Source of the DNA: an uncultured Candidatus Poseidoniales archaeon
Lineage (GTDB): Archaea; Thermoplasmatota; Poseidoniia; Poseidoniales; Poseidoniaceae
Assembly: GCA_902625885.1 (NCBI GenBank)
Contig: CACODE010000002.1
Location: 72,454 to 136,453 of the forward strand
DNA length: 64,000 nucleotides
Direction of reading: 5' to 3'
Below, piece by piece: positions 238 to 19,421 of this stretch (the stretch's first letter is position 1; every line of letters starts with the position of its first letter). Position numbers and translations under genes: made by a program. Under the pieces are notes generated by a model. That model made no database searches, was not told the origin of the DNA, and worked only from the letters and a program-made list of their open reading frames with translations.

Positions 238-930
238 TCACTTGAAAAGACGGTACCATTCAAAATATACAAAAATGAACAAAAACACAACATAAGCAAT
301 GAATCTTTTTTTCTGAGTTTGTTCAACCTCCGATAACGGCCATCCTCGCGCTCCCGTCAAGGAATCGTCCTGTTTCGGTACCGGGACCGACGAGAATACC
401 ATCAGTGATAAGCCCAGCATGGGCGCCCATAATCCATTGTAGGCCCAGAAGAAATACCCCAAATTATCCAAGTTCGCAGCATCCGAAACCGGTTGGATGA
501 AGTCGATGATTGAGTGATCTACGGCCCATAGTGGGTACCCATAACTGCCACTGTCGAATTCTGTTCCAATGCAGACGAAAAACCAACTCGCAAAAAAGCC
601 AATCGGTACCAAGAGTGATGCGACCAGCGGAGAGAGAAAATATCTGATTTTGGATTTGGTTTTTACAGCAATTTCGAGCGGTATGAAAAAGCACAACGAC
701 ATGGTGAAAGCGAACACAATGTTGGCCAGAAGACTCCAGGTCCAAATCTTCAGGAAATAAAACTCCTCAAATATCTCTTGAGGAAAGGGAGTGGTGCCTG
801 CTATGTTTGCTATGAAGATGAAAAGCACACAAAAAATCTTGAATTTTGGCGGAGATTGAACAGCGAAGTCTCGCAGTTCTTCCCAGTATTCTTTGCGCAA
901 CAACCTCAACATGGCATTGCTTGCCATCAA
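238..930 (-). CDS. Hypothetical multi-pass membrane protein
   Basis: This encodes 230 residues with about four hydrophobic segments (near residues 30-48, 65-90, 100-125 and 205-228) and a basic N-terminus (LRLLRKEYWEELR). No known family is recognised. The gene and its flanks are visibly richer in A and T than the rest of the window, with many Phe, Ile and Lys codons, which suggests acquired or accessory DNA. Start candidates are the adjacent Met codons at 930, 927 and 912. It is followed by an AT-rich non-coding stretch of about 200 bases before the serS stop. Confidence 0.6.
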   Translation of the reverse strand: MMASNAMLRLLRKEYWEELRDFAVQSPPKFKIFCVLFIFIANIAGTTPFPQEIFEEFYFLKIWTWSLLANIVFAFTMSLCFFIPLEIAVKTKSKIRYFLSPLVASLLVPIGFFASWFFVCIGTEFDSGSYGYPLWAVDHSIIDFIQPVSDAANLDNLGYFFWAYNGLWAPMLGLSLMVFSSVPVPKQDDSLTGARGWPLSEVEQTQKKRFIAYVVFLFIFVYFEWYRLFK

Positions 931-1136
931 TTACTTGTCTTTAATCATTAAGCCGGTTATCCTGCATCGGCTGCATACATGTCGATTTGATGAGTTGAGA
1001 AGGTTAAACCCATTACCCTTTGAATTTTATATTCTGATACGAAGGGTTTGCAGTGAGTCGTCACTAACGCCATCTTTTCTATTGGATGGGTGAGGGGAGA
1101 TGTCGGCATACGCGTAGGATAGCCAGCGCTGCGCGC

Positions 1137-2441
1137 TCATCCCCAGCCGCACGGTTCGAGGACGTCCTGACCGCCCATCAAAGGTTGAAGCGCCTCGGGG
1201 ATGGCGACCCGACCGTCCTCAAGTTGGTACTGCTCCATGATGGCGACCAGGGCACGGGACGTGGCGACCGCCGTCGAGTTGAGGGTGTGAACGATGGGTT
1301 GGTTGGGATGGCCGGGCTGTCCGTAGCGAATGCCAAGCCGGTTCGCCTGATAGTCCGTGCAGTTTGAACAGGAGACGATCTCCTTGTACTGCTTCGCACC
1401 AGGAATCCACGCCTCAAGGTCGTATTTTTTCGCCGCCACCGTGCCCATATCGCCGGTGCAGATGTTGACCACCTCGTAGTGGATGCCGAGGCTGTCCCAC
1501 AGGTCGGTGCAGTTCTTGAGCAACTCTTCGTGAAGTTCCCAGGAATCCTCTGGGCGGGCAATGATGATTTGCTCTACCTTCGTGAATTGATGGACGCGCC
1601 AAATACCGAGGTCGCTTTGCCCATGACTCCCGACTTCACGACGGAAGCACTGGGACACCCCAACCATGCGCAGCGGCATCTGTTCTTCTGGAATCGTTTC
1701 GTCCATGTACATCGCCGTGAGCGGGTGTTCCGAAGTGGCGATCATGTAGTACTTGTCCGGCTCGATGCCGTACATGACCGTTTCAAAGTCGCCGAGGTCG
1801 GTGACCCCTTCGTAGGCCTCTCGGTTCATCATGACGGGGGGCTGAACGAAGGTGTAGGCGCGCTCGCGCAGGAAGTTGACAGCGTACTGCTGTAGCGCGA
1901 ACTCCAACCGGGCCAAGTCGCCTTTCAGAAAGTAAAATCGGCTACCGGTGATTTTTGCAGCTCGCTTGAGGTCAACCCAGCGGTTCATTTCGATAAGTTC
2001 GTTGTGGGTTCGAGGTTCAAAGCTGAACTCGGGTTTGACCCCGTAGACCCCGTGAACGGTGTTGCCCGAGTCGTCCTCACCCACCGGCACGTCTGCGTGA
2101 AGGATGTTGGGTATCGACATGCGAAGCCGGTCCCGGACGGCCACGGCCTCGTTGGTTTTGGCTTCCATATCGGCTATTTTGGCCCCGAGGTCAGCCACCT
2201 CGGCGAGAATGGTTTTTGCCGCTTCGTCGTCACCGGCCTTCTTGGCTGCACCAATGCCGCGAGCCGCCTCGTTCTTGGCACGACGAAGCTGGTCGGTTTC
2301 GTGCAGGAGGTTCCGCCAGCGCTGGTCGAGTTCAATGACCTTGTCGATGTTGTCGTGCGGCAGACCGCGCTTGGTGTGGTCGGCACGAATAAGGTCGGCG
2401 TGCTCACGGAACATGTTCATGTCAAGCATTGGCTTCACCAC
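1137..2441 (-). CDS. serS: Seryl-tRNA synthetase
   Basis: This cytoplasmic class II aminoacyl-tRNA synthetase charges tRNA-Ser with serine. The 434-residue length is typical of the common (non-methanogen) SerRS. The first 110 residues are a charged coiled coil, the tRNA-binding arm. The catalytic part has the class II motif 2 region (QCFRREVGSHGQ) and a motif 3 region (STAVATSRALVAIMEQYQ) near the C-terminus. The ORF starts at 2441, which overlaps the end of the upstream presenilin-like gene by 7 bases; Met codons at 2429 and 2420 are equally plausible starts. The same strand and overlap indicate co-transcription with that gene. Confidence 0.95.
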   Translation of the reverse strand: MVKPMLDMNMFREHADLIRADHTKRGLPHDNIDKVIELDQRWRNLLHETDQLRRAKNEAARGIGAAKKAGDDEAAKTILAEVADLGAKIADMEAKTNEAVAVRDRLRMSIPNILHADVPVGEDDSGNTVHGVYGVKPEFSFEPRTHNELIEMNRWVDLKRAAKITGSRFYFLKGDLARLEFALQQYAVNFLRERAYTFVQPPVMMNREAYEGVTDLGDFETVMYGIEPDKYYMIATSEHPLTAMYMDETIPEEQMPLRMVGVSQCFRREVGSHGQSDLGIWRVHQFTKVEQIIIARPEDSWELHEELLKNCTDLWDSLGIHYEVVNICTGDMGTVAAKKYDLEAWIPGAKQYKEIVSCSNCTDYQANRLGIRYGQPGHPNQPIVHTLNSTAVATSRALVAIMEQYQLEDGRVAIPEALQPLMGGQDVLEPCGWG

Positions 2442-4672
2442 GAGATGTTGAAACTAAAGATGTCGCCGCCGAGGAGGAGAAGCCCGCCAATAAAGTACCC
2501 AAGAATGGCGCCACCGTTGAGCAGAGGCAGGCCGGCTTGTGCTTTCCCACGAGCGACGTAGGTCATCAGGGCAAGGTAGCCGAGAAGCGCTCCAGCCAGC
2601 GTGAACATGGCCACTTGGAAGGCGGCGCTCTGGTCAAGCCACTGCAGGGCTGAAAGCACGAGCATGCCCGGGAAAATGATGTCTCCCAAACCCATGAACA
2701 TCGCTTCGCTCCCTTTCTTGGCGCGTTTGACCGTGGCACCGGGCGCAGCCGCTGGTTGCGACGAGACCGGACGCTTGGCTCGCTGCGTCTCTTCGATGAG
2801 GGAGTATTCACTGTCTTGAGGCGCCACGAGAAGGATGGGCAGGCGCAGCCCGACCATCGTGTCGGCCAAATCGAGCATGTGTTTGGATTTGTAAACCGCC
2901 CAGAAGTCGTAGACAGCAGCGAGGACCATGAACAAAATCGCCAGCGCCGGCACGAAGGTCACGCCCAGCATCACGCAAACCCCCGCGCCCAACAACACGC
3001 CCGTGGTGTTCACCACGTACCATTCGCTGTGAACCACGAGAAGGAGCAACAGGAGAGCGGTCGCCGCCAAACCGGCTAAGGTGGGCATCAGGAACAACTG
3101 CAAGCCATAGAGCGGGAACATCGCCGAGGTCAGTTCACCGTCTTGGAGAAGGGTCGTGCCGTCCGCCTTACTTTTGCTGAGCACGAGCAACGTTGCCTCT
3201 TCATCCTCCACGGCAAAGAACACGTTGGCTGCGTCCTCGGCGACGGGGAAACTGGCCCGGTTGATGAGCGACGTCGTGTAAATCCAGTGCGCTTCACCGT
3301 CACCTGCAATCAACAGGTCAGAGATGCCGGATTCGTCCAAGTCAGTGATTCGCACGGACGAGACGTTGTCGACCAAGCCGTCCAAATTCAACTTGTCCTG
3401 CGGAGTGTAGGCGTCTTCGCCCTCCAAACTGCCGTTCCACTCAACGCCCGTTATGGTGCCGTCATCAGCACCCATGAGAATCAGTCGCTGGTGCCTCGTG
3501 TCGGGCATTGACATCGCTTCGGAGATGTTCTCTTCCATGAACGGCGACCAGCCCACGTCAACCGAAGTCAGTGCTGTGCCTTGTTCTGGATAGTGCTGCA
3601 TGTGATAGGTGGCGTTGTTGACGGCTCCTTGACCGAGATCAAGCGCTGCGGCGTTTTCCTCAAGCAAGATCGAAGCGGCTTGCGTTGGCATTGCCAAGAA
3701 CCAATGGTCATCGTCAAGGAGTTGGCTGCGTAAGAGTTGCCCAGCCACGTCAAAGTCCGGCAGAGCCCAGCGGCCTTCGTAGACCAGCAAGCCGGGATCG
3801 CTCTCGAACGTTTGGTAGCGGAACAGTTCAGCATAAGGATTGACGATGTAGTACCCGTCTGAAGTGGAGACAGCGAGGTTGCAGCCGCCCTCCATGTTGC
3901 CAAGGTGCTCGATGACATCGCCGTCGGTCGTGTAGCAGGCATAGCTTTCCAGAAGTTCGCCGGTGGACGCATCGAGAACCCAAGTGTAAGCATTGGAGGC
4001 AAACGTGAGCTTGTCTGCGGAAACGGTCATCGTGACCGGAGCACCAGGTTCGTAAACGTGGTGAGGGTGCGTCGTGTTCCAAACAGGCGTCTCGTAATCG
4101 TTGGACGCATCCCACGCCATGATGTCAACGGTGGTGTTCGTGTCTCCATCGCTTACGTCGTAGAGAAGGAAACCGTTGTCGCCCCAAGCGCCCAGCATCT
4201 TGCCGTCCAACGTCCGCTCGTTCTCCACCGCAAAAGGTTCGGTGTCAAAGTCGAGCACAAGCATGTGAGCAAGCGGCACGGTGGTGTACATCATGGCCAA
4301 CGTGAGAACAACGTACATACCGTATTTGATGATGTATTCCTTGCCCCAACGAGCGAGAAAAATGATGAGCGCCGTGAACGCAAAAATGGCGAGGAGTTCC
4401 AGAGCAACGTAGCGCACTTGCGTGGCGCCCGACGCGCCAAAGGCGTGCAGTTCACCCACGTCGTAGTACGGTCGAATGTAGATCGCAAGAGCGATGGTGG
4501 CGACAAACATACCGGCCATGCCCGCCATGCCACGCCATTGCTCGGCCATCAAAGCACCGATCGTGTCGCCCTGTCGAAGCTCGTCCTCGACATCGGCGAA
4601 GCGCTGAGAGACGTCTCGAGTCTCGTCGGCCTCTGCAACATCGCTCATGGCCTTCCCAATCCCCTCTTCCAT
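2435..4672 (-). CDS. Presenilin/signal-peptide-peptidase-like intramembrane aspartyl protease with large extracytoplasmic insertion
   Basis: This is predicted to cleave transmembrane segments inside the membrane. The second half has the three signatures of the A22 presenilin/SPP family: YDFWAVY (catalytic Asp about 589), GLGD (catalytic Asp about 664) and a PAL-like GLPLLNGG near residue 715. Three helices precede (about 50-68, 85-107, 112-135) and six follow, giving the usual nine. Between helices 3 and 4 about 370 residues are inserted, with repeat-like beta structure and a calcium-loop-like DLDESGISD motif, suggesting a beta-propeller-like ectodomain. Single-domain archaeal homologues are around 300 residues, so this protein is more than twice the usual size. 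The family call is firm; the propeller fold is inferred. Confidence 0.85.
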   Translation of the reverse strand: MEEGIGKAMSDVAEADETRDVSQRFADVEDELRQGDTIGALMAEQWRGMAGMAGMFVATIALAIYIRPYYDVGELHAFGASGATQVRYVALELLAIFAFTALIIFLARWGKEYIIKYGMYVVLTLAMMYTTVPLAHMLVLDFDTEPFAVENERTLDGKMLGAWGDNGFLLYDVSDGDTNTTVDIMAWDASNDYETPVWNTTHPHHVYEPGAPVTMTVSADKLTFASNAYTWVLDASTGELLESYACYTTDGDVIEHLGNMEGGCNLAVSTSDGYYIVNPYAELFRYQTFESDPGLLVYEGRWALPDFDVAGQLLRSQLLDDDHWFLAMPTQAASILLEENAAALDLGQGAVNNATYHMQHYPEQGTALTSVDVGWSPFMEENISEAMSMPDTRHQRLILMGADDGTITGVEWNGSLEGEDAYTPQDKLNLDGLVDNVSSVRITDLDESGISDLLIAGDGEAHWIYTTSLINRASFPVAEDAANVFFAVEDEEATLLVLSKSKADGTTLLQDGELTSAMFPLYGLQLFLMPTLAGLAATALLLLLLVVHSEWYVVNTTGVLLGAGVCVMLGVTFVPALAILFMVLAAVYDFWAVYKSKHMLDLADTMVGLRLPILLVAPQDSEYSLIEETQRAKRPVSSQPAAAPGATVKRAKKGSEAMFMGLGDIIFPGMLVLSALQWLDQSAAFQVAMFTLAGALLGYLALMTYVARGKAQAGLPLLNGGAILGYFIGGLLLLGGDIFSFNISW

Positions 4673-8552: not shown

Positions 8553-8578
8553 TGCCGGGGGCAGGTTCTGAACCTGCG
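8553..8578. repeat. Left attachment site (tRNA 3'-end mimic)
   Basis: The sequence matches the complement of the tRNA-Leu 3' end: TGCCGGGGGCAGG is exact over 13 bp, then five bases with three differences, then AACCTGCG exact. The internal part, 8561-8577, is a perfect inverted repeat with 8-bp arms and one central base (GCAGGTTCTGAACCTGC). It lies 59 bp upstream of the GIDE-protein start, where the tRNA 3' flank would have been before insertion. Confidence 0.8.
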
Positions 8579-8609
8579 CCAAAAATGCGTCACTGCGAAC
8601 ATGCTACAT

Positions 8610-8647
8610 CCTGCAAAAATCCCGAATTTTTGGCATGTTTTTGCAGG
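8610..8647. terminator. Inverted repeat after the minus-strand gene block
   Basis: CCTGCAAAAA at 8610-8619 is perfectly repeated in inverse at 8638-8647 (TTTTTGCAGG). It lies about 90 bp beyond the stop of the last gene in the minus-strand block, so it may end that transcript. It also lies among the shared end repeats and could instead bind the recombinase. Confidence 0.45.
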
Positions 8648-8722
8648 GAAAAACCTGCCAATTTTGCCTTCAAATCTGGCATTTTTCCGTGACGGGATTC
8701 GGGACAAATGTTCCGGATTCCG
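8626..8722 (+). repeat. Left-end repeats shared with the right end
   Basis: Three 12-bp words present here recur just inside the right att site: ATTTTTGGCATG (8626-8637), TCTGGCATTTTT (8675-8686) and TTCCGGATTCCG (8711-8722). Their presence at both element ends suggests recombinase or accessory-protein binding sites. No gene overlaps the stretch. Confidence 0.6.
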
Positions 8723-8738
8723 TCGTTATTCGGCACGC

Positions 8739-9116
8739 TCACTTGAACGGATTTGTCGCTATTCCGATATTGATGCCAGCACCAAACAACGAGCCAACAA
8801 CGGGAATACCGGCGAACGGATTCTTGTAGGTCTTGCCGGTTTCTTTGTCCTCGTATTCCTTCTTCCCGAGGACGGGTTCCATCACGCCGTCCGCCAACTC
8901 GCCCAAGTCGTCCATGATGTCCTCGGTCCACCCTGCGACGGCCTTAGCGGTCTTGTAGCCGATGTAAGCGGCGGAACCCACGCCTGCGGCGATGATGACA
9001 GGGCCAGTGACGTTCTTGACGACGCTTCCGCCGACATACGCTTCCAGCATGTCACGCTCTTTCTCCTGCAACTCAATGCGATGGACGATAACCTGCGTGG
9101 GCTTTGACTTAGGCAT
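8739..9116 (-). CDS. Element gene: small membrane-associated protein
   Basis: This encodes 125 residues and is the last gene of the minus-strand block. A charged N-terminal part (VHRIELQEKERDMLEAYVGG) is followed by a hydrophobic stretch (VTGPVIIAAGVGSAAYIGY) and a Gly/Ala-rich C-terminal segment (GSLFGAGINIGIATNPFK). The start at 9116 (MPKSKPTQ) falls 4 bases after the preceding stop; a longer frame to 9188 would overlap the previous gene. No family is recognised. The make-up is compatible with a small membrane-embedded virion component, but that is inference from context. Confidence 0.65.
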   Translation of the reverse strand: MPKSKPTQVIVHRIELQEKERDMLEAYVGGSVVKNVTGPVIIAAGVGSAAYIGYKTAKAVAGWTEDIMDDLGELADGVMEPVLGKKEYEDKETGKTYKNPFAGIPVVGSLFGAGINIGIATNPFK

Positions 9117-9120
9117 GGTA

Positions 9121-9351
9121 TCACGCAAGGAGTTCTTTGGTGCGCAGTAGCCACGACAGATAGGCGCAGATTTCCGCCGTTTCCGCACGGGCCAGCACGC
9201 CGTTCAAATCGGCCTTGACATCGGCGGCGAGGATGTCGGCAAAGGTGGAACTGCTATACTTGACATAGAGGGGGTTCTCCATGAGCCTACGGTTGCCCGT
9301 AGAGGCCGCCCAGTTGATGGGATAACCCGAGGTCATACCGGTTCGCCTCAC
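9121..9351 (-). CDS. Element gene: 76-residue hypothetical protein
   Basis: This small protein has a basic N-terminus (MRRTGMTSGY) and a helical C-terminal half (ADLNGVLARAETAEICAYLSWLLRTKELLA). Its ATG overlaps the stop of the candidate coat-protein gene by 4 bp, which supports translational coupling and a real gene despite its size. No family is recognised. Confidence 0.6.
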   Translation of the reverse strand: MRRTGMTSGYPINWAASTGNRRLMENPLYVKYSSSTFADILAADVKADLNGVLARAETAEICAYLSWLLRTKELLA

Positions 9352-10055
9352 GGTGCAGAGGTCGTTTGAACCTTGATTTGGAAACCCTTCCCGATGGGAA
9401 CGGCCAATGAATCGGCGTTGAGGTTCTTGTAGAGCGACATCGCCCCGAGCGTATCACCACGGACACCGCCGAACAGCGTAAGCACGACACCGCCCGAGTT
9501 GTCAATGATGGTCACCTCATCCACGGTCGCCCCGTCCTCTGCTTGCACGCAGATGGAGCCGAGCGTTGAGTTGAACATTGAGTCGCCGAGGGTCTGGTCA
9601 TTCACGACCGTTTTCATGGCCGTAGGCACGCCGTCAACGACGCCTTTCGCCTCAAACAACTCGACGCCCTTCGTGGTCTGAATCCATGCGAGAACATTCG
9701 TTTGCTGGGCCGTCCCGTCAACTGGCAGAGGGTACACGGTGAAGATGTCGTTCGGGTTGATGCTGTACGGTGCGATACGGGACGAATCAAAGCAGGCGAG
9801 GCCGTCTTTGGAGCCAAAGCCCCAGCGATTGAAAACGAGGCTCTGGGCGTTCTGTATGCGCCACGCCACGAGTCCGCCGGTGTATTGGCATTGAACTTGA
9901 GAAATGGTCGTGTTTGGCATCAGAATGCCGACCTGCTGGCCGCTAATGGTATCGGTCAAGGTGTTGCCGTCCCAGATGTCATCAGTTGCGTTCTTGGAGA
10001 AGACCTTGCCCATCCGGGCGTTGCTCAAAGTTGCTTGAACATCCTGCGTGGTCAT
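9348..10055 (-). CDS. Element gene: candidate coat (major capsid-like) protein
   Basis: This 235-residue protein is the largest product of the minus-strand block. It is rich in Gly, Thr, Val, Asn and Gln with alternating hydrophobic patterns and few charged helices, as expected for an all-beta fold. It lacks a signal peptide and a transmembrane helix. Position in the middle of a compact block of small basic and membrane-type proteins fits a structural gene. It is short for a double jelly-roll capsid protein but right for a single jelly roll. No sequence motif proves capsid identity, so treat this as a hypothesis for structure prediction. Confidence 0.55.
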   Translation of the reverse strand: MTTQDVQATLSNARMGKVFSKNATDDIWDGNTLTDTISGQQVGILMPNTTISQVQCQYTGGLVAWRIQNAQSLVFNRWGFGSKDGLACFDSSRIAPYSINPNDIFTVYPLPVDGTAQQTNVLAWIQTTKGVELFEAKGVVDGVPTAMKTVVNDQTLGDSMFNSTLGSICVQAEDGATVDEVTIIDNSGGVVLTLFGGVRGDTLGAMSLYKNLNADSLAVPIGKGFQIKVQTTSAP

Positions 10056-10507
10056 ACCTTCACCCCGCTAAGTCCAGCCGCTTTGAGCATCCGGTTGGCA
10101 GGCGTGATGATTGGTTTCCGGAGCAACTTCGTTCCGATTTTGAAAGCGATGGGTATGCCGATGACAGCCCCCAGCATTGGAACGGCGTTCCTCTTGAGGT
10201 TGGTCTTGAGAACCTGCGGAACTCCACCCGACCAATACGAGCCAGCGATACCGCCAGAGCCTCCCATCGCCCGGTCAATCAATTCCTTCAAGGTCAACTC
10301 GTCCGAGTTGTTGCCGCTACTGTACCCGCCGCCGAAGTCGTTACGGAGGCCAAGGAAAGTAAGCAGGTTGACGCCCATCATCCCTCTGCTAACAGCGTCG
10401 GCGATGAGGTACTGTTGCGCAAGCATGGTGACGTTAGTTGTCTTCTTGCGTCGGCGTCTGGTCGTCGTCTGGCGGGAGAACCTCCCATTCTTGCTCCGGC
10501 GTGGCAT
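10052..10507 (-). CDS. Element gene: basic, glycine-rich membrane-type protein
   Basis: This encodes 151 residues if it starts at 10507, with a very basic N-terminus (MPRRSKNGRFSRQ then RRRRKK). It continues with a Gly/Ser-rich middle and a hydrophobic Gly/Pro/Ile segment (VPMLGAVIGIPIAFKIGTKLL). An alternative Met at 10426 removes the basic arm and the 74-bp overlap with the upstream gene. Its stop overlaps the next start by 4 bp. An arginine-rich arm is common in nucleic-acid-contacting virion proteins, but the start choice decides whether it exists. Confidence 0.6.
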   Translation of the reverse strand: MPRRSKNGRFSRQTTTRRRRKKTTNVTMLAQQYLIADAVSRGMMGVNLLTFLGLRNDFGGGYSSGNNSDELTLKELIDRAMGGSGGIAGSYWSGGVPQVLKTNLKRNAVPMLGAVIGIPIAFKIGTKLLRKPIITPANRMLKAAGLSGVKV

Positions 10508-10784
10508 GTTTCCCAGCCATTCCGTTGCTATTCAAAAGCGAATTGAGGATAATCCCGAACGGCGAATTTGAACCCGCCTCTGGTGGTTTCTGCGAGGTGG
10601 CGTCACCGAGGTCGGCAATCAGTTGGGCCACCTCGTCCAGCAGGTCGGAAGTCTGCTCCAAACGGTCGGTTATGGCCCGTCCTTGGATGGGCAATTCTTC
10701 CTTGATTCCAAAGCAGGAGCGCACCAAAAAGTAGTGTGTTCCAATCAAACCCAACAGCGCAAAAGCCTGCAATTCCTCAAGCAT
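10434..10784 (-). CDS. Element gene: single-helix acidic protein
   Basis: This encodes 116 residues from the Met beginning MLEELQAFALLGLIGTHYFL, which puts a hydrophobic helix at the N-terminus, followed by a helical region and an acidic tail (EWEVLPPDDDQTPTQEDN). The frame is open to a Met at 10967, but the extra 61 residues are low-complexity and come from AT-rich DNA that looks like a control region. It is the first gene of the minus-strand block. No family is recognised. Confidence 0.5.
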   Translation of the reverse strand: MLEELQAFALLGLIGTHYFLVRSCFGIKEELPIQGRAITDRLEQTSDLLDEVAQLIADLGDATSQKPPEAGSNSPFGIILNSLLNSNGMAGKHATPEQEWEVLPPDDDQTPTQEDN

Positions 10785-11287
10785 GTTTGGCGCACCGTGA
10801 AGCGGTTTAGAAGGAGTTCTGGCATACGTACGAACGATCACTACCTCAAGCCAACCTGAACCCGACTCGTCGAGCAAAAAAGGGGTCAAAAACGGTGAGG
10901 TAAATTTTGAGGAAAGTGAAGTTTTTGACTCTGTGTTATTGTTATTGGAGAGAAACGAGAATCTCAAGAATCGTTCTGTGTTACTAAATGTAAAGACACT
11001 ACACTTGACAACGCTTACAACTGCGATATGTGCGGGTTGTTATGAACCCACGCTGGCCGTATTCTGGCATAATTCTGCGTATGTTTAAGACGGTTCGGGA
11101 TTTGCCACTAACCAGAAAAGCACCAACCCCACTACGGACGGGCAACAGGATAGGAAGAATGGCAACTGCGTTAGAGGGCCGACGAAAGGGGCCGTCGTAG
11201 CGTGTGTTGAACAGTGGGAACGACTGGAGAGGGTAGTCTTCGTGACTCCCCAGCGTTCCCATACCACGGAGGGGAAGTTGACAGAAT
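10785..11287. promoter_or_regulatory. Divergent control region of the element
   Basis: This roughly 500-bp stretch separates the two gene blocks and should carry both promoters. The left part is AT-rich with TATA-like patches (for example near 10985-10995 for the minus strand and TTTAAG near 11084 for the plus strand). The right part is GC-rich with strong hairpins just before the plus-strand block. If the minus-strand gene starts at 10967 the non-coding part shrinks to 320 bp. It could also hold the origin of replication. Confidence 0.5.
11216..11260 (+). other. Strong stem-loop upstream of the recombinase operon
   Basis: GGGAACGACTGG (11216-11227) pairs with CCAGCGTTCCC (11250-11260) over 11 bp with one bulged A. 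An inner stem AGTC/GACT (11235-11238 with 11244-11247) closes a TTCGT loop. A weaker stem CGACG/CGTCG lies just before, at 11180-11197. A purine-rich GGAGGGG (11268-11274) follows, ahead of the first gene. It may be a leader RNA or an origin hairpin. Confidence 0.5.
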
Positions 11288-11581
11288 TTGAAGAGACAAT
11301 ACCACTACTTCGTGTATCGGTGCGAAGAGTCCGCAGAGACTCGGGGAAGAACGAAACAACCAGACAGGAGGCAACCCTGCGGACGCTGGGGCGTCCATCA
11401 AAGCCGGGCAGAGGGTTCGTTTGAGGAAACCCTCGCCCAGAAGCCCAGCATCCGGGCAAGGTGCAAATGCGACAGACGGCAGGTGTTGAAGAACGAAAAT
11501 GTCCTGCCAAAGCACCGCTTTGAGCATCGCTCGGCGGCTCGTGCCATCGCTGAACACCTCAACCGGGAGGAAGAGGAATGA
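11288..11581 (+). CDS. Element gene: small basic Cys-containing protein
   Basis: This encodes 97 residues from a TTG start, with Cys at several places, including a CKC pair in the second half (IRARCKCDRRQVL) and a basic helical end (HRSAARAIAEHLNREEEE). It could be a small zinc-binding DNA-binding regulator. Its stop overlaps the next ATG by 4 bp, the main support for it being real. The first half is less convincing and the true start may lie further in. Other frames are also open here, so confidence is moderate. Confidence 0.5.
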   Translation: MKRQYHYFVYRCEESAETRGRTKQPDRRQPCGRWGVHQSRAEGSFEETLAQKPSIRARCKCDRRQVLKNENVLPKHRFEHRSAARAIAEHLNREEEE

Positions 11582-11970
11582 GGCCCATTTTCATTGATGT
11601 CCCATTCCTCAAGGTTGCATGCGGTTGGAGCCGCTACAAGACCCGCAAGGGACGCACTCGCTACGGGTGCCTCAATGTCCCCAACTACGAGGGGCCGGGC
11701 GAGGTTCTGGCGTACGATTTCAGCCCCGACAGGAACGGTGACATCAGCGTCAATGTCCGCAAGAAACCACGAGACTTGGAGAGCCTCACGCTCAAGCGCA
11801 TGGCCGACTTCCGGGGCTTCATCATCAGCAAGAACGGATTCGTCCGCCCGCTTGATGAGAAGAGTTCCAACTGGCGGGAACGAAGCAATCCACGAAAGGC
11901 CGAAAATTGGCGAGACTATGCCATGTTCTTGAAGGAGTATCTGGATAGCATGCGTGGTGATGAAGAATGA
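11578..11970 (+). CDS. Element gene: 130-residue hypothetical protein
   Basis: This is a soluble, basic, mixed alpha/beta protein (PIFIDVPFLKVACGW, then GDISVNVRKKPRDLESL and a helical C-terminus). It is linked to both neighbours by 4-bp start/stop overlaps, so the plus-strand block is a translationally coupled trio. No family is recognised. Its place between a small Cys-containing protein and the recombinase suggests a role in replication, excision control or regulation, but nothing in the sequence shows which. Confidence 0.65.
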   Translation: MRPIFIDVPFLKVACGWSRYKTRKGRTRYGCLNVPNYEGPGEVLAYDFSPDRNGDISVNVRKKPRDLESLTLKRMADFRGFIISKNGFVRPLDEKSSNWRERSNPRKAENWRDYAMFLKEYLDSMRGDEE

Positions 11971-12014
11971 TTTCGCTTTGGCTTGCGCTGTCTCTGTTCG
12001 GCTTATGCTTGAGC

Positions 12015-12890
12015 ATGAAAACGGCCCTCTCTGGGCGTCAACCGGTGCTTTACTGCCGGGTGTCCACCAAGGAGCAAAAGAAGACGCTCACGGCGCAGGA
12101 AACGGTCTTGCTGGACTGGCTCAAGCAGAACGGCATCAAACGGAAGCCGAAGGTGTTCAAAGAGCAGGTTAGCGGTACTTCGGAAGAACCGCCCATGCTC
12201 CTTGAGGCGATAGCCTACTGCGTCGCTCGTCCGGGCAAAACCTTCCTGCTCGTCCGAGACTTCCAGCGCATCAGCAGGAACTGGCGATTTGGTGCGGCCA
12301 ACATGATACCGCTATGGAAGGCTGATGTCCCGGTGGTTTCGGCCTTGACGAACCAAGTGTCAAACACCTCGCAGAGCATCCAAGACAACGACTTCCTCAT
12401 TGGTCTGTTCATGGCCCTTGGTGCGCAAGAAGTTGACCAAGTGAAGAAGCGTACCGCCGCAGGAACCGCCGCCGCACGAGCGTTAGGCATTATTCCCGGC
12501 ACGACATTGGATTTCTACCTCAAGGACAGCCTCAACCCATACCGAGAACTGCGCAGGCTCTTGCAGGCTGGCGTAGGACAGACAGAGGGTTCCCGCCGCT
12601 TGAACAAGTCAACCTCGTGGTGGCGCAAGCGCAGGGAGTTCTTCCGTGAAGTCATGGAGCGTGGAGGCGAGGAAGCGATAGAGAACTGGCTCACGACCAC
12701 CGACAGGATGCGGGAGCGATTGGCAACGCTTGACCTCAAGAAGAAGGATGACAAGAAGAAGGAGCGAGCATTGAAGAGAATGACCTCTGGCTTCCTCAAG
12801 TTCCCCTATGAGTTCCCCATGCCGAGCGAGGAACAACTTGACGAGTTCATGCAGAATTTCCAGTTGTACCAACCCAAGCGAACGAAGTGA
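12015..12890 (+). CDS. Serine recombinase (resolvase/invertase family), probable integrase of the element
   Basis: This catalyses site-specific DNA recombination through a phosphoserine link. The resolvase domain has YCRVSTKEQ with the catalytic Ser (about residue 17), FLLVRDFQRISRNW (equivalent to the usual LDRLSRN strand) and the helix MALGAQEVDQVKKRTAAGTA. The C-terminal 130 residues are basic and helical, shorter than in large serine integrases, with no obvious zinc ribbon. The start MKTALSGRQP is preferred. An upstream ATG at 11967 overlaps the previous stop but adds a hydrophobic 16-residue leader that is odd for this family. The gene ends 68 bp from the att site, the usual place for an integrase. 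Confidence 0.88.
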   Translation: MKTALSGRQPVLYCRVSTKEQKKTLTAQETVLLDWLKQNGIKRKPKVFKEQVSGTSEEPPMLLEAIAYCVARPGKTFLLVRDFQRISRNWRFGAANMIPLWKADVPVVSALTNQVSNTSQSIQDNDFLIGLFMALGAQEVDQVKKRTAAGTAAARALGIIPGTTLDFYLKDSLNPYRELRRLLQAGVGQTEGSRRLNKSTSWWRKRREFFREVMERGGEEAIENWLTTTDRMRERLATLDLKKKDDKKKERALKRMTSGFLKFPYEFPMPSEEQLDEFMQNFQLYQPKRTK

Positions 12891-12894
12891 TTTT

Positions 12895-12934
12895 TCCGGA
12901 TTCCGGCGTTTGGCATTCTGGCATTTTTGGCATG
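12895..12934 (+). repeat. Right-end repeats shared with the left end
   Basis: TTCCGGATTCCG (12895-12906), TCTGGCATTTTT (12917-12928) and ATTTTTGGCATG (12923-12934) repeat the three 12-bp words of the left end, here more tightly packed and partly overlapping. They lie between the recombinase stop and the att site. The order is reversed relative to the left end while the orientation is the same. Confidence 0.6.
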
Positions 12935-12958
12935 AAATAATCTGGTCAAAAACAGTGG

Positions 12959-12984
12959 TGCCGGGGGCAGGATTCGAACCTGCG
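12959..12984. repeat. Right attachment site (3' end of tRNA-Leu)
   Basis: These are the last 26 bases of the tRNA gene, matched by the left copy at 8553-8578. The T loop here is the normal TTCGAAT; the left copy has a changed loop. The exchange is therefore most simply placed in the exact 13-bp block 12959-12971, which leaves the tRNA body host-derived. Confidence 0.75.
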
Positions 12985-13040
12985 AAGCATTATGCAGAGG
13001 AGCTTGAATCCACCCCCTTTGACCACTCGGGTACCCCGGC
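12959..13040 (-). tRNA. tRNA-Leu (CAA)
   Basis: This is an 82-nt gene without encoded CCA. The acceptor stem GCCGGGG pairs fully with CCCCGGC, and the discriminator is A as in leucine tRNAs. The D stem is CCC/GGG with GAGTGGTCAAA between. The anticodon loop TTCAAGC gives anticodon CAA at 13004-13006, reading UUG. The anticodon stem has one U-U mismatch. The variable arm is long (GCATAATGC hairpin), as in class II tRNAs, and the T arm is GCAGG-TTCGAAT-CCTGC. Its 3' end is the target of the integrated element. Confidence 0.9.
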
Positions 13041-13073: not shown

Positions 13074-16000
13074 CTATTCCTCTCGCGAGGTGTCCGATAA
13101 GTCCCACGGCTTGGGCGGTGGTCGCCTCAATGAAACGATGCGCTTGATGCGTTCAAGATGGTACAGTTCGTCCCGTTGCGCTCGCCGTTGTCGAACCACA
13201 AACAGCACCATGCCGGCGACGACGAAGGCCAGTATGGAGAGGCTGAACGTCGCCATATCGCCCGCTGAGGAGGATGGATCTCGCGCTCGAATTTCGGCTA
13301 AAGGAACCGGGATACGCAAGCTGTGGTTTTCAATTTCCAAAGTGAGCAGAAGTCGCCCTTCTTTCCAAGCCTCGATGTTCCAAACGAAATTCCTGTACTC
13401 GCCCTTTTCAAGGTAGGCCGTGCCGTTGCCCAACTCCTTCCCCAGGTCGTCTCGAAGGACAACCCGTACCTCACCACCCAGCAGCCCGTCGTTGGCAACC
13501 CTTGCGTAAATCGAGATGTTGTCGCCAAGAACGGGTCGGTACGGTGTGGCCGTGGTTTCGGTGAATTCCGGTTCAAAGGCGAACCAAGTGATGCCAACGG
13601 TGATGGGGGATTGCGGCGAACCGCGCCCAACCAGCGAACGGCCCGACCTGTCGGTTGCATTGAACCAAACGATGAGCACATCGCTGCTGGTGAGTTCAAC
13701 CCCTGCCGGCACGAAATCCACGACGTCTTCGTAGACGGTGAAATCGTTGAGCAGTCGAGCGATGGGCAGGTGAACAACTTGTCGCGAACCTTCCACGATT
13801 TGCCCGACGCGAGAAATTTGCGTGTGCATTTCAAGCGCTGTTGGAGGCATGTCCGTGTCATCGTTGACGCTGACGGAGATGGGGACGGCCGTCATGGCGT
13901 TCGAGGCGTAATTGTTCAACACTCCTGCAGCGATGACGACCCTTGGAGCGACGTCGTCAACGACAACGCCGTAGCTGATGGGGTGGATGATGTACCCTTC
14001 AAAGCCTGTTGGTGCCACGATGAATTCACCCGTGTCTGAATACAGCACGTTTTCGTTCATGTAGACGTCAAAGTCAACGCGGCCGTTCATGGTTAGGTTT
14101 ACAACGCCACCGCCCGTTCGTTCGCCGTCCGACAAAATCCATTCGAACTGTCCCGTCTGCGGGAAGTCGCGCGCCAGTATGGTGGTGTTTTGGTGGTAAA
14201 GCCCGATGCTGTGCTGGACCTTGTCGTTGCGATGGAACCAATAGATTGAACCGTTGTTTTGACCGTACGGCTGCTGCGTATCCACAATCTCAATCCAGCG
14301 CAATTCAACCAAATCGTGGGCCATCCAAGACAAACTGCTGAGGCTGTAAAGTCCCAAACCAAGGTCTTGACCTTCGTCAAACACCTTCAACGACGGCGTC
14401 AATTCTTGTTGCCCGAGATCCCTTGTGGCGTTCCACGTCAACCTGAACGCGACAGAGATGTCGTAGATGTTCGCCAGCGGCCGTTGTTCAACGCTCACGG
14501 ATGGTGATGCAACAAAACAACCCTCGTCGTGTTGAACCTCGGCGAAACGAGGAAGGTAATGGATGAAGCACGACGATTCGTTTTGTTCTCCCAACAACGC
14601 CAGCTCGATCGCATCGAGCGAACCGAGACCGTTCGCATCACCAAGCGTGAAGGAGAAACGGTGTTCATTCCCCGCAAAGAGAAAGCCACTTTGACGGTCA
14701 AGGGTGATGCTGTCAACATCCAAGACGGTGTCCGCTCGGCGTTGAACGCTGAGGGTTGCAAGGTCGTGTTCCGTCCCAAAATCCCCGCCGCCGTCAAGCG
14801 GGTTGCCAGCGAGGTCTTGACCGACCAAAACAACGCTCAGAAGACCGCTGTTGGCGCCGTTTGGAACCACGTTCTCCGAAGCGATAAGGGGAAGGTCAAC
14901 CTCAAGTTCGCGCGCACCCCGGTTCAAACTGACCGTCTGCATGGCGTATTCGGTCGATTGAGGAACGCCGTCGTTGTTGCTGTCGTGGAGGCTCTCAAGC
15001 CAAGTCCACACCTCGAGTTGACTCGCCAACCCTTCCTGGTCGCTGATTTCCAGTCGTAAGGCCACGTCTTTGCCGTACATCGTGATGTGCTCGTCAGCCG
15101 GAACTTCTCGGCCCGCATCAAGCACCGTCAGCGAATCGACTTGCGGGCTTACGGTATCGTGCAAAAACCGCGTTGGCGTCAGGACGACGGTGCGATCGTC
15201 GCTGGTAGCGGTGATGGCGTCCATCGGCCCGCGACGGGAAAGGCTCGGAACGATTTCCAGGAAGGTGTTACTTGGAACAGCATCGCCCTCGCTTGGTGTG
15301 CTAATGGGAACGGTGAACCAACCTCCCGGGCCGACCTCTGCCTGCCAGGACTGGGACCACACCACCGGCGTGCCCGGCCATTCATCTGGGCCCCCTGTGA
15401 GGTTCTTTGGCGGGACGGCACGCATCGTGACGGTGGCCTCTGCCTCGCCTTGGTTGACCCACTGATTGGCGATGCCCTCCATGCGCACGCGTCCTTTGGC
15501 CTCCAAGGCTTGAGAGCGGTTGAGATGGAACGGCCAGAACGAGTTCGTCCAATCGTCAATGCGTCGCGAAGAAACGTCGCTCACCGTGAAATCCACCACT
15601 TCCAAATCGTTCTCTATTTCGTTGAAGGCGGTTTTTCTCACGAACACCTTCGGACCCACTTCCAGCCCGTCTTCATCGGTCGCCGAAACCAGAACGTGCA
15701 AGTCATCCACGTCATCAAGAAGCCAAGTGCTGGTGAAAGACCACGTGATGCTGCACGTGTTTGTTGAGCATGAAACCGATGAATTTTGCACGTCAAGGGG
15801 GGCGAGGCCCGCTCCGCCGAGTTGCCGGAACCTTGGTGCCTGCTGAATTCGGTCAACTTGGACATGAACCAACCTCTGCTCAAGATCGGCGTTGCCACCA
15901 AGGTACAGCGAAATCGCGCTGATGTCTGGCGCATCTTCCGTTGGATTGAGAGGGTTGTACCGGGTGTGATGGCTGGTGAACGAAACGGTCTCCTCGGGCA

Positions 16001-19000
16001 ACCAACGCGTGTAGGTCGGTGCATCCACCTCTTCCACCATCATCGGAAGCGTGGTCGCATTGAGCCCTACACGGAGACCGCCTCTCAAACTCTTCACGTG
16101 AAGCGGCACTTCGAGAACCTCGCGGACGTCCTGGCCCAGCGAGGCTGATTTGGCAGCGTTCAGCGCCGTCGAAGAAACGCTGACTTCGAGGGTCGTGTCG
16201 GGAAGCATGTGCAGCAAATCGCCGACATGGACTTCCGCAGCACCCTGCACTTCGATGTTGACCGAACACGTCAGGACGTAGGCGTTGTAGCTTGGATGGG
16301 GATGGCTGGAGGTAACGTTCGGGCAGGACTGAGTGGACTGGTAATGAACGACGGCGTACTCCTCCGGTGTCGGTTGAACGGCCCCGTTGATACGAACCAC
16401 GGTCCCTGCAGAAACGTTGCTGAGCATGAGGTTGAAGGCGGGTCCAACGCCAGTGGACGAACCCTGAGGTTGCCGGTCAATGGAAACAAAAGAGAGGGTG
16501 AGTGACGAGTTGTTCGTTGCAATGGTGGGATGAGTCGTGTTGTTTCCCGCCGTCATGTTGAGGCCGTTGTGAACGACGGAAGTCCACTGCGTGTTGAGGC
16601 CAAACAGCGCATCCATGCCGTTTGGTGGCCACTCCATGACGGACACGTTGTTCCATCCAATCGATAGGTGAGGCGCTGTTGGTGGAAGAACACAATCCAA
16701 TTCAGCCTTGGCTCTAATGAATTGCTCACCACCGGAAGCAACGAGCGTGAACGCAGGTGTTGTGGCGATGTCGCCACCGAGCGAATGATTGAGGTAGGTG
16801 GTTTTGACGCGACCGGGGACGTGTGCGGAAGCGACGAGTTGACCGTTGGGTGTTGCCCAGGTCAGGTTGTCGCCAAAGGTTGTGATACGGTAGCCATCAA
16901 AGGGGCAGGCAAGCGGCGAAAACAGCGGTGTTGAGAACGCACCCACCACGTTCAACGTCCCGTTGTCATCGACCAGGGCGTTGGCTGAGCCCGATACCGT
17001 GTTCATCACGTGTTGCGGTCCAATGTAGATGGTGCGGCCAAAGCTCATGCTGTGCACCAGTGGCGTGACAAAGGCGTCGTCAGTGCTCATTCGGACCCGT
17101 ACGTGAACGGAGGGGTGCTCGACGGTGTCAATGACCGGGTACGCTGGCAAGGTGAGGTTCTGCAGACCCTCTATCGGTACCTTGTTGGCGTCCAAAACAT
17201 CGAACAGAAGTTGGGTGCCGTTGGGTTGTTCAAACCACCCGTCCAACCACCCATAACCGAACAGAGGGTCGGGCGCAATCGCAGGGGAAACCCAAGTTCC
17301 CGACGTCTCGAACAAATCGATTTCGATGCCCGCATCGTCGATGTACCAACCGTCGGCTTCGACGTAGGTGTCGGAGAAAAAGGAAAATCGGGCCTTGAGC
17401 GTTTGGCCAGAAAGGTTGGACAGGTCGTAAGTCTTGAGTTCAAAATCACGGTTGTTCGACGAACCACAGCCACCCGCCACGCTCGAACCGTCGATGATGC
17501 CTCGGCCGAAGAACGGTGAATTGGTGTTCACGGTGGAGACCTGATCGTGAAAACCGTTCACTTCGGCCGGTAGCCACCACCAACTCAAGCCCTCGTCTGT
17601 GGAAATCGAAACGCCGCCGCCGTCCCAGTTTGCCTCGGTGCACACCCAAGAACGGAACGAGAGGCGTGCCGTTGCGTTGGTGGGTATGGTGTACTCTTCG
17701 GTGACCAAGTGCGTGTAAACATTGTTGGTGTACTTCGTGGTCAGGTTGATGGCCGCCCCGTTTTGACCGGAATAAAACAACCCGGGGCCGTATCCAGAGG
17801 TGTTTCTTGTTTGACCGACCTCCCAACCGTCCGGCCACGTGCCTTCAATTGACCAGCCCGGAGGCGTTATGATTGAATTTTCAAAAGAATTCGTTGAGGT
17901 CTGTGATGGATTCATCCCAAAATCGGTTGTCCAGTTCCACTCGTTCACGTAGGAGGGAGAGGGGTCCAGCCAACCGCGCTGGTCCCCATATTGACCGCTG
18001 GAGTTCACCGAGAAATTGCCGATTTGGAGCCGCTCGGCCTGTACGGTTCCGGGCCGATGAATCACCGCAACATCGTCGATGGCCACGCCTTCCCACCCCG
18101 ACGAGGCAAAGCCTCCGTACCCGTTTTGATAGTTGGTGACGACCTGAAATTGAAACAAGGTCCTCGAGGCGTTCGGGTGGCCGGAAACGCCTGAGGGCAA
18201 ATTGTAGGTGATGGGAATCCAACCCAACGATTCGTCCGTGTAATACCTGCCCTGGTGGGAAAGGCCGTTGCCGGGCAAGCCGGGAATACCTGAAACGGGT
18301 GCCCATGTGGTGCCGTTGTTCAGACTGACCAACACGAGCAGGTTGTCGTAATACGAGCCCTCGAGATCCCAATTTGCCCAAAACTCAAGCTGCATCGGAC
18401 CGTTGTAGCCCGACAAATTTGCTGGCAGATACAACCGCCCGTCGGCGTTGTTGGCGTAGTTCCCGCTCATGTTTCCGTGGAACCACGCCCCCGGTACATC
18501 GCCAAGATTGGAGAACGTGTAGTTGTCAAGGAACCATCCGTGGCGCATGCCAGCGGTCTCGGAGGTCTTGAAACAAAATCGGATCTCAACGGTCGAAGAG
18601 GAAGTGACAAGGGCGTCAAGGCTGAAGTGAGCCCGTTGCCATGAAGATGAGGCGCCGGACCAAACATCGGTGGGGGCGCCCGTGAGGGTGGAAGCGTTGG
18701 TGTAGCCGGTGGAAGGAGAGAGGACTTGCCACGAACCCCCGGACAAACGGCTCTCCACCCAGGCTGCGTCGTCGTCAAAAAACGACAACCAATGGTCAAG
18801 CGTGAGGTTGTACTGGTTCACAAAAGCCGGGACGGTTTCCTGTGGCGAGGCCAGACAACCGCTCATGTTGGCACCCAGCCCACCAAGTGCTTGGGTCGCC
18901 AGAACATGTTGCCCTTCTGTGGCGCTGCTCGGTTGATTCACCGATGTCGACGAGGTGTTTGGGTGAACAACGTTCCACGTGTTGTGATTTGGTCCTTGCC

Positions 19001-19421
19001 CGACCCAATCAGGGAGGGTGGCAATAAGTGTCTCAAAATCAGTAAGGGTCCCTACCGTCGACTGCGTGGCGAGACTCAATTGACCTCCATGGCCAATCCC
19101 CTGTGTCCCCTGATGCGAACCGTTCCAGCCCTTTCTTCCATCAATACCGTAACGGCTGGAGGTGTCAGCAGCGCCTGACCACATCGGGGTGACGTCAAGC
19201 TGCCCGCCACTGAAGGTTTGGTTGTAGGGGATGCTGAGGAGGTTCGTGTTGGTGGTGTTGACGCCCGTTTCGGTTCCGCTTGGAATGTAGTACGTCGCTC
19301 GTTCAGGGGAGGTTTCCGGTTCAAAGACAGGAGGCACCATGGGTGAAAACACCACCATGCACATCAAAAAACACAGACCGACCGCTGTCAAAGAACGAGC
19401 GGAAGACCGTGCGTTTGCCAT
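13074..19421 (-). CDS. Giant secreted, membrane-anchored surface protein (2,115 residues)
   Basis: A signal peptide (SLTAVGLCFLMCMVVFSPMV) is followed by a very long outside region and one C-terminal transmembrane helix (FSLSILAFVVAGMVLFVVRQ) with a basic cytoplasmic tail. At least three modules in the first 750 residues end in GWFLDN, GVAIDD or GWYIDD with preceding Ser/Trp-rich strands, resembling the MAM-like/immune-inhibitor-A carbohydrate-binding modules. A calcium-loop-like DSNNDGVPQSTE occurs in the second half, and the last outside domain looks like a CARDB-type module. Many N-x-S/T sites suggest glycosylation. A role in surface binding or as part of a cell envelope is likely; no enzyme motif was seen. 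Confidence 0.85.
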   Translation of the reverse strand: MANARSSARSLTAVGLCFLMCMVVFSPMVPPVFEPETSPERATYYIPSGTETGVNTTNTNLLSIPYNQTFSGGQLDVTPMWSGAADTSSRYGIDGRKGWNGSHQGTQGIGHGGQLSLATQSTVGTLTDFETLIATLPDWVGQGPNHNTWNVVHPNTSSTSVNQPSSATEGQHVLATQALGGLGANMSGCLASPQETVPAFVNQYNLTLDHWLSFFDDDAAWVESRLSGGSWQVLSPSTGYTNASTLTGAPTDVWSGASSSWQRAHFSLDALVTSSSTVEIRFCFKTSETAGMRHGWFLDNYTFSNLGDVPGAWFHGNMSGNYANNADGRLYLPANLSGYNGPMQLEFWANWDLEGSYYDNLLVLVSLNNGTTWAPVSGIPGLPGNGLSHQGRYYTDESLGWIPITYNLPSGVSGHPNASRTLFQFQVVTNYQNGYGGFASSGWEGVAIDDVAVIHRPGTVQAERLQIGNFSVNSSGQYGDQRGWLDPSPSYVNEWNWTTDFGMNPSQTSTNSFENSIITPPGWSIEGTWPDGWEVGQTRNTSGYGPGLFYSGQNGAAINLTTKYTNNVYTHLVTEEYTIPTNATARLSFRSWVCTEANWDGGGVSISTDEGLSWWWLPAEVNGFHDQVSTVNTNSPFFGRGIIDGSSVAGGCGSSNNRDFELKTYDLSNLSGQTLKARFSFFSDTYVEADGWYIDDAGIEIDLFETSGTWVSPAIAPDPLFGYGWLDGWFEQPNGTQLLFDVLDANKVPIEGLQNLTLPAYPVIDTVEHPSVHVRVRMSTDDAFVTPLVHSMSFGRTIYIGPQHVMNTVSGSANALVDDNGTLNVVGAFSTPLFSPLACPFDGYRITTFGDNLTWATPNGQLVASAHVPGRVKTTYLNHSLGGDIATTPAFTLVASGGEQFIRAKAELDCVLPPTAPHLSIGWNNVSVMEWPPNGMDALFGLNTQWTSVVHNGLNMTAGNNTTHPTIATNNSSLTLSFVSIDRQPQGSSTGVGPAFNLMLSNVSAGTVVRINGAVQPTPEEYAVVHYQSTQSCPNVTSSHPHPSYNAYVLTCSVNIEVQGAAEVHVGDLLHMLPDTTLEVSVSSTALNAAKSASLGQDVREVLEVPLHVKSLRGGLRVGLNATTLPMMVEEVDAPTYTRWLPEETVSFTSHHTRYNPLNPTEDAPDISAISLYLGGNADLEQRLVHVQVDRIQQAPRFRQLGGAGLAPLDVQNSSVSCSTNTCSITWSFTSTWLLDDVDDLHVLVSATDEDGLEVGPKVFVRKTAFNEIENDLEVVDFTVSDVSSRRIDDWTNSFWPFHLNRSQALEAKGRVRMEGIANQWVNQGEAEATVTMRAVPPKNLTGGPDEWPGTPVVWSQSWQAEVGPGGWFTVPISTPSEGDAVPSNTFLEIVPSLSRRGPMDAITATSDDRTVVLTPTRFLHDTVSPQVDSLTVLDAGREVPADEHITMYGKDVALRLEISDQEGLASQLEVWTWLESLHDSNNDGVPQSTEYAMQTVSLNRGARELEVDLPLIASENVVPNGANSGLLSVVLVGQDLAGNPLDGGGDFGTEHDLATLSVQRRADTVLDVDSITLDRQSGFLFAGNEHRFSFTLGDANGLGSLDAIELALLGEQNESSCFIHYLPRFAEVQHDEGCFVASPSVSVEQRPLANIYDISVAFRLTWNATRDLGQQELTPSLKVFDEGQDLGLGLYSLSSLSWMAHDLVELRWIEIVDTQQPYGQNNGSIYWFHRNDKVQHSIGLYHQNTTILARDFPQTGQFEWILSDGERTGGGVVNLTMNGRVDFDVYMNENVLYSDTGEFIVAPTGFEGYIIHPISYGVVVDDVAPRVVIAAGVLNNYASNAMTAVPISVSVNDDTDMPPTALEMHTQISRVGQIVEGSRQVVHLPIARLLNDFTVYEDVVDFVPAGVELTSSDVLIVWFNATDRSGRSLVGRGSPQSPITVGITWFAFEPEFTETTATPYRPVLGDNISIYARVANDGLLGGEVRVVLRDDLGKELGNGTAYLEKGEYRNFVWNIEAWKEGRLLLTLEIENHSLRIPVPLAEIRARDPSSSAGDMATFSLSILAFVVAGMVLFVVRQRRAQRDELYHLERIKRIVSLRRPPPKPWDLSDTSREE

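Follow-up and report, generated by a model that had tools for sequence, protein, structure and literature searches.

Charybdis elements are circular elements of about 4.6 kb from Poseidoniales (Kirchberger & Luque 2025 preprint, PMC12324425), recognized by a circular genome of 3.7-5.2 kb. They consist of opposed structural (gp1-gp3 plus downstream genes) and accessory modules, with a two-domain beta-sandwich Gp3 of about 230 residues and accessory methyltransferases. They have no recognized replication or virion hallmark and are enriched in the vesicle/small-virus density fraction, the choice between vesicle and virus being left undecided there (PMC12324425). Members of clade P, which have no gp5 protrusion gene, were seen integrated beside tRNAs with their modules facing outward, and an integrase or recombinase is present in all integrated members (PMC12324425). 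The words "serine" and "att site" have 0 occurrences in the preprint text, so the class of recombinase and the attachment (att) sites are undescribed (PMC12324425). In the papers searched, tRNA genes are not among the known targets of serine integrases. Archaeal serine recombinases have been observed in transposons and never fully investigated (review, PMC8371274). Here we analyze a 4.4-kb segment (positions 8553-12958) of a 64-kb stretch of contig CACODE010000002.1 (the window, that is, the whole stretch of DNA analyzed). Very probably this is the integrated, proviral-like form of a Charybdis element that belongs to the integrating type (clade P by the preprint's description) and is hosted by a Poseidoniaceae archaeon. 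New beyond the preprint are the serine recombinase, the tRNA-restoring att repeats, the different tRNA used by each element and the paired arm repeats.

Insertion of the segment in tRNA-Leu

The tRNA-Leu(CAA) gene (12956-13040, minus strand) is the sole tRNA gene that ARAGORN found in the window. A sequence-only reading of this DNA had noticed that its 3' end is repeated 4,406 bp away. The comparison confirmed a direct repeat with 23 of 26 identities between a tRNA-proximal (12959-12984) and a distal (8553-8578) attachment repeat. The repeat is unique, since the next-best copy on either strand of the 64 kb matches at 17 of 26 positions, and its 13-bp identical core TGCCGGGGGCAGG (12959-12971 and 8553-8565) has just two occurrences in the window.

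The genes flanking the segment, encoding a 630-amino acid (aa) GIDE-like protein on the left and a 2,115-aa large secreted protein on the right, were searched in 30 genomes of the genus. A locus was taken as readable when the left gene was found together with its upstream side (n = 24 congeners). The uninterrupted tRNA-Leu/GIDE junction that the sequence-only reading had proposed to look for was present in 24/24 readable congeners, where the large gene's C-terminus is followed by tRNA-Leu(CAA), intact and at the same spot, and by the GIDE-like gene, without an intervening element. Among the remaining congeners, two stop at a contig edge, and in two others the left gene was not matched. Since every readable congener has the uninterrupted junction, the 4.4-kb segment is an insertion that restored tRNA-Leu.

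Joining the flanks of the segment gives a sequence that aligns with the closest relatives across the tRNA end. On the tRNA side, the window reads ...GGCACCACTG, which is absent from all close empty sites; these sites and the far copy of the window read ...GGCATT or similar, without CCA. Outward from the distal copy come the host-like GGCATT and a flank resembling that of locus L024 (CGGGGGYTTGATTATARCACGG). Because the far copy reads as the host type, it is the host's original end, and the present 3' end of the tRNA, with its CCA, was supplied by the element. The crossover position falls inside CCTGCCCCCGGCA.

An ordinary, vertically inherited region with a coincidental repeat would agree with the base composition, which does not set the segment apart from the host (0.52-0.57 and about 0.57, respectively). 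On the other hand, the 24 empty sites at the exact junction refute this explanation, the 235-aa protein encoded by the segment occurs in no congener and the repeat has no second match in the window, leaving vertical inheritance with virtually no probability.

The 235-aa protein was found in 6 of 171 genomes of the family and nowhere else in the genus, and a class-wide profile search of 340 genomes returned the same six carriers. Within the limits of their contigs, the carriers repeat the minus-strand block of the window (gp1-like, Arg-rich gp2, 235-aa protein, 76-aa GYPINW protein and gp6) and, on the opposite strand, a Cys-rich protein and the serine recombinase. The targets are tRNA-Leu(CAA) in the window, tRNA-Glu(CTC) in element L010, tRNA-Ala(TGC) in L011 and tRNA-Asn(GTT) in L012; that of L014, whose contig is cut there, is probably tRNA-Arg(CCT). 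In each element (window, L010, L011 and L012) the repeat begins within the 3' strand of the T-stem and extends to the tRNA end, with an identical core of 13 bp in the window and L010, 16/16 in L011 and 19/19 in L012. Empty sites for L010 were found in four relatives (G084, G052, G039 and G056), with the flank that the element displaced. Restoration of the tRNA was demonstrated in this way for the Leu and Glu targets. In two elements (window and L011) the tRNA adjoins the recombinase end, and in two others (L010 and L012) the recombinase end is the distal one, so that attP lies in either orientation.

Two degenerate copies were also seen. L015 (G083:C10, 2098-4954) is a decayed copy in which the block is kept with stop codons and no recombinase is present, and L052 (8001-8312) is a decaying remnant with a gp6-like reading frame only. 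In genome G146 (L075, G146:C82, ~300-3519) about 2 kb of other genes, nucleotidyltransferase-like and methyltransferase-like, lie between tRNA-Leu and the GIDE-like gene, where the window has the element. The interval between these two genes is possibly a recurrent insertion spot.

Relationship to Charybdis elements

Between the repeats lie eight tightly packed genes, a minus-strand block of five (8739-10784) and a plus-strand block of three (11288-12890), several of them with overlapping ends; the two divergent blocks described by the sequence-only reading are thus borne out by the layout of open reading frames. The modules are separated by a divergent intergenic region of 503 bp (10785-11287). 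On the minus strand, a gp1-like gene (10434-10784), assigned by position and size, encodes 116 aa with an N-terminal hydrophobic segment and an acidic remainder, and gp2 (10052-10507) encodes 151 aa with an Arg-rich N-terminus (net charge +19). These are followed by gp3 (9348-10055), the 235-aa candidate capsid protein, and by p76 (9121-9351), a conserved 76-aa protein with the GYPINW motif that occupies the gp4/gp5 position and has homologs in L010, L011, L012, L014 and L015. The last gene, gp6 (8739-9116), encodes 125 aa with a conserved N-terminus, KPTQVIVHRIELQExER, and then a hydrophobic part. The plus-strand block begins with a 97-aa Cys-containing protein (11288-11581), which has a similar gene in L015 (27%) and whose position is occupied by Cys-rich genes in L010-L013. 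It continues with a 130-aa accessory protein (11578-11970), found here alone among the 171 family genomes, and ends with the 307-aa serine recombinase (11967-12890).

This arrangement fits the two opposed modules of Charybdis elements, with gp2 upstream of gp3 and gp6 at the end of the structural module, and the integrated length of 4,406 bp falls within their size range of 3.7-5.2 kb. Of the clade P traits, absence of the gp5 protrusion gene (the 76-aa protein stands alone between gp3 and gp6) and presence of a recombinase were both found. The host belongs to Poseidoniales (Poseidoniaceae), as for Charybdis elements. The segment is therefore like clade P in gene layout, size, host and integration beside tRNAs, a match made by description, the preprint naming neither the recombinase class nor the att sites (PMC12324425).

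Homology with circular elements was supported by two of the proteins. The N-terminus of gp6 (KPTQVIVHRIELQEKER) matches ten IMG/VR contigs of 4.3-4.9 kb, nine of them with direct terminal repeats, and these ten contigs carry a similar structural block and an opposed accessory block. Profile comparison (HHalign) with the circular elements gave probabilities of 99.1% (E 4.9e-19) for gp6 and 98.5% (E 1.6e-15) for gp2. The new kind of mobile element that the sequence-only reading had offered as one possibility is thus of a kind already described in the 2025 preprint (PMC12324425).

Several observations weigh against this assignment or parts of it. The comparison of gp1 with the circular-element gp1 profile gave 0.7%, no significant match, although its position, size and N-terminal hydrophobic segment fit. 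That of gp3 with the circular-contig gp3 profile gave a probability of 2%, also not significant, so that this gp3 is linked to Charybdis by its position, its length and its predicted fold. When IMG/VR was scanned with gp3 (as a single sequence and as two alignments), with p76, gp2 and the recombinase and with the predicted circle junction, a free form of this lineage was not found. Among the queries, gp6 alone reached other circular clades; gp3 and gp6 had no match among INPHARED phages. The host genome is a metagenome-assembled genome of 70% completeness. In the case of L012, about 130 bp beside tRNA-Asn (L012 7109-7240; L080) are common to the carrier G027 and its element-free close relative G022, which then diverge. 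With this much of the tRNA-side sequence present in a genome that lacks the element, the insertion of L012 is not cleanly resolved, and its empty site could not be established; the shared flank is perhaps the relic arm of an earlier element. Finally, it is the constant association of the serine enzyme with the elements which suggests that this enzyme, rather than a host factor, performs the crossover.

A Charybdis block that is not P-like, with a gp3 similar to that of L063, was observed directly after an alanyl-tRNA synthetase gene on the same contig (L072, G314:C19, 1878-6821). It lies in a genome from another family of the class and has no visible integrase, and its contig ends in adapter-like sequence. 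Either the block integrated outside clade P, or the contig is a chimera of the assembly.

The serine recombinase and its probable sites

The recombinase gene ends 68 bp from the tRNA-side repeat and its product matches Pfam Resolvase (PF00239, E=1.6e-19), in agreement with the earlier placing of a resolvase-type serine enzyme next to the tRNA. The catalytic motif is YCRVST (R31, S33), and R31, S33, R101 and R104 are invariant across the enzymes of five elements (window and L010-L013). These five enzymes are 307-379 aa long, those of the relatives being 18-37% identical to that of the window; all have PF00239 only, and the Pfam Recombinase domain (PF07508) was found in none. A serine recombinase is present in 5/5 elements with an intact accessory end (window, L010, L011, L012 and L013).

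Across the 171 family genomes, the recombinase profile found the five elements, one contig-end fragment and one unrelated provirus-like region. The fragment (L073, G110:C50, 5155-5474) comes from a contig that ends within the gene of this recombinase family, beside TGCCGGGGGCA, a tRNA-Leu 3' end motif, and is probably another cut-off integrated copy. The weak match in G165 was rejected, as it is an ordinary serine integrase, with Resolvase and Recombinase (PF07508) domains, from a provirus-like region that is unrelated to the elements. This region (L074, G165:C65, 108-9001), from the same archaeal family, lies near tRNA-Lys and tRNA-Arg genes. Searches of PDB sequences with the recombinase and with gp3 gave nothing usable.

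The sequence-only reading had considered a serine enzyme unusual in a tRNA-targeting role, and this view agrees with the literature; no later exception was found in open papers, which is not proof of absence. The enzyme resembles the large serine integrases (phiC31/Bxb1 type) in the N-terminal Resolvase domain with conserved Arg/Ser and in its probable integration role, but belongs to a family of 307-379 aa without PF07508 that is associated with restored tRNA 3' ends. Islander-type islands and archaeal tyrosine-integrase elements share with this locus the order of tRNA gene, element and displaced tRNA fragment, as well as paired arm repeats, whereas the enzyme of the window is of an unrelated serine family.

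Three 12-mers are common to both non-coding arms around the predicted attP, which was delimited as the 259 bp from the recombinase stop to the gp6 stop. In the recombinase-side arm (12894-12934) they are TTCCGGATTCCG (12894-12905), TCTGGCATTTTT (12917-12928) and ATTTTTGGCATG (12923-12934), and in the gp6-side arm (8626-8722) ATTTTTGGCATG (8626-8637), TCTGGCATTTTT (8675-8686) and TTCCGGATTCCG (8711-8722). All are in direct orientation, and going outward from the core their order (ATTTTTGGCATG, TCTGGCATTTTT, TTCCGGATTCCG) is mirrored between the arms. No further copies occur in the window, and 0 of 2000 dinucleotide shuffles shared two or more 11-mers between the arms. The arms of L011 contain one such pair (TTTCCGGTAT), and L010 and L012 have short recombinase arms without the pattern. 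The 12-mers may be binding sites for the recombinase or for an accessory/excision (directionality) factor, or they may be iterons of an origin.

Paired arm repeats resemble the site layout of tyrosine integrases, and tRNA 3' ends are the classical target of these enzymes, as expected if a host-encoded tyrosine integrase inserted the elements into tRNA genes and the serine recombinase were a cargo resolvase. This is improbable given the presence of the serine recombinase in all five elements with an intact accessory end and the lack of another strong match to its profile in the 171 family genomes. Domain-library searches revealed no tyrosine recombinase domain in the eight proteins of the element, and the preprint notes an integrase or recombinase in all integrated elements (PMC12324425).

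With the serine recombinase as the integrase, a circular DNA of ~4.4 kb would carry its attP where the 3' ends of the structural and accessory modules face each other, and this attP would contain the terminal part of tRNA-Leu. The enzyme would cross over within CCTGCCCCCGGCA, the 13 bp shared with the tRNA gene, the tRNA being rebuilt with the element-supplied 3' end and the host's old end displaced to the far side. Most likely the three 12-mer pairs around the predicted attP would be sites for the recombinase or for an accessory/excision factor. The precisely bounded, intact-looking proviral copy, together with its empty sites, gives the exact ends and the exact junction (12958 joined to 8553) that a circle would have. 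Its 307-aa recombinase and the defined att sites form an unusual integration system that is directly testable. Should the enzyme act on tRNA-Leu, it would be an exception to the stated rule that tRNA genes are not targets of serine integrases.

The structural module and gp3

The AlphaFold2 (AF2) model of gp3 (predicted local distance difference test, pLDDT, 91.7; predicted TM-score, pTM, 0.89) consists of two beta-sandwiches and shares with the model of a circular-element gp3 (pLDDT 82.1) a twice-repeated order of strands and short helices. Sequence evidence for an internal duplication of gp3 is weak (P 0.0025). Foldseek searches of the gp3 model against PDB and BFVD returned nothing at E<=0.001, with TM-scores mostly about 0.2 or below. 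Among the minus-strand proteins, hydrophobic segments are clear in gp1, gp2 and gp6 only (maximal 19-residue Kyte-Doolittle means of 1.4-1.7), values which make the two membrane-type proteins of the sequence-only reading plausible at moderate strength.

As had been noticed, no packaging ATPase or other packaging or replication gene was recognized among the eight proteins in Pfam, PHROGs, NCBIfam and PADLOC, and the non-recombinase proteins had no credible match in these libraries. Weak matches of element proteins to ribosomal L12, thymidylate synthase and endolysin were discarded as not credible.

The minus-strand block had been read as a possible minimal virion set. Its homology to the structural module of circular virus-like elements agrees with this proposal; a virion built by the module and a free circle of the element are both inferred. 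The proteins gp1, gp2, gp3, p76 and gp6 would probably form a small particle or decorate a membrane vesicle, the shell being made of gp3, and replication would proceed via the host or a helper. The segment could instead be a satellite or plasmid-like passenger, whose module encodes surface or vesicle proteins and whose DNA is carried by a helper virus or by host vesicles. We give this explanation only slightly less than even weight, as the searches revealed neither a packaging ATPase nor a replication gene nor any known capsid hallmark, and the preprint places such elements, undecided, in the vesicle/small-virus density fraction (PMC12324425). However, the uniform size of ~4.6 kb and the exclusive, conserved structural module favor a size-limited particle (PMC12324425), and genes that redirect the capsid of a helper were not recognized.

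Charybdis elements may be an unrecognized viral lineage in an archaeal group that is among the most abundant in the ocean, and their hosts cannot be cultured. A broader picture, tentative and less likely than not, is that a family of short serine recombinases without the Recombinase domain evolved tRNA-restoring targeting, switches from one tRNA to another between relatives and mobilizes viruses that would rank among the smallest of archaea, gp3 then being a new double beta-sandwich capsid fold and these viruses a candidate new realm.

Beside the insertion site, the 2,115-aa secreted-type protein (window 13074-19421) has an immune-inhibitor-A-like MAM domain and is conserved in the genus. Two circular elements, L055 (1056-2042) and L058, encode a 328-aa protein with no Pfam match which by our judgment has the look of a topoisomerase VI A-subunit/Toprim relative. 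Other circular elements carry Dam, C5 methylase and PAPS-reductase-like genes.

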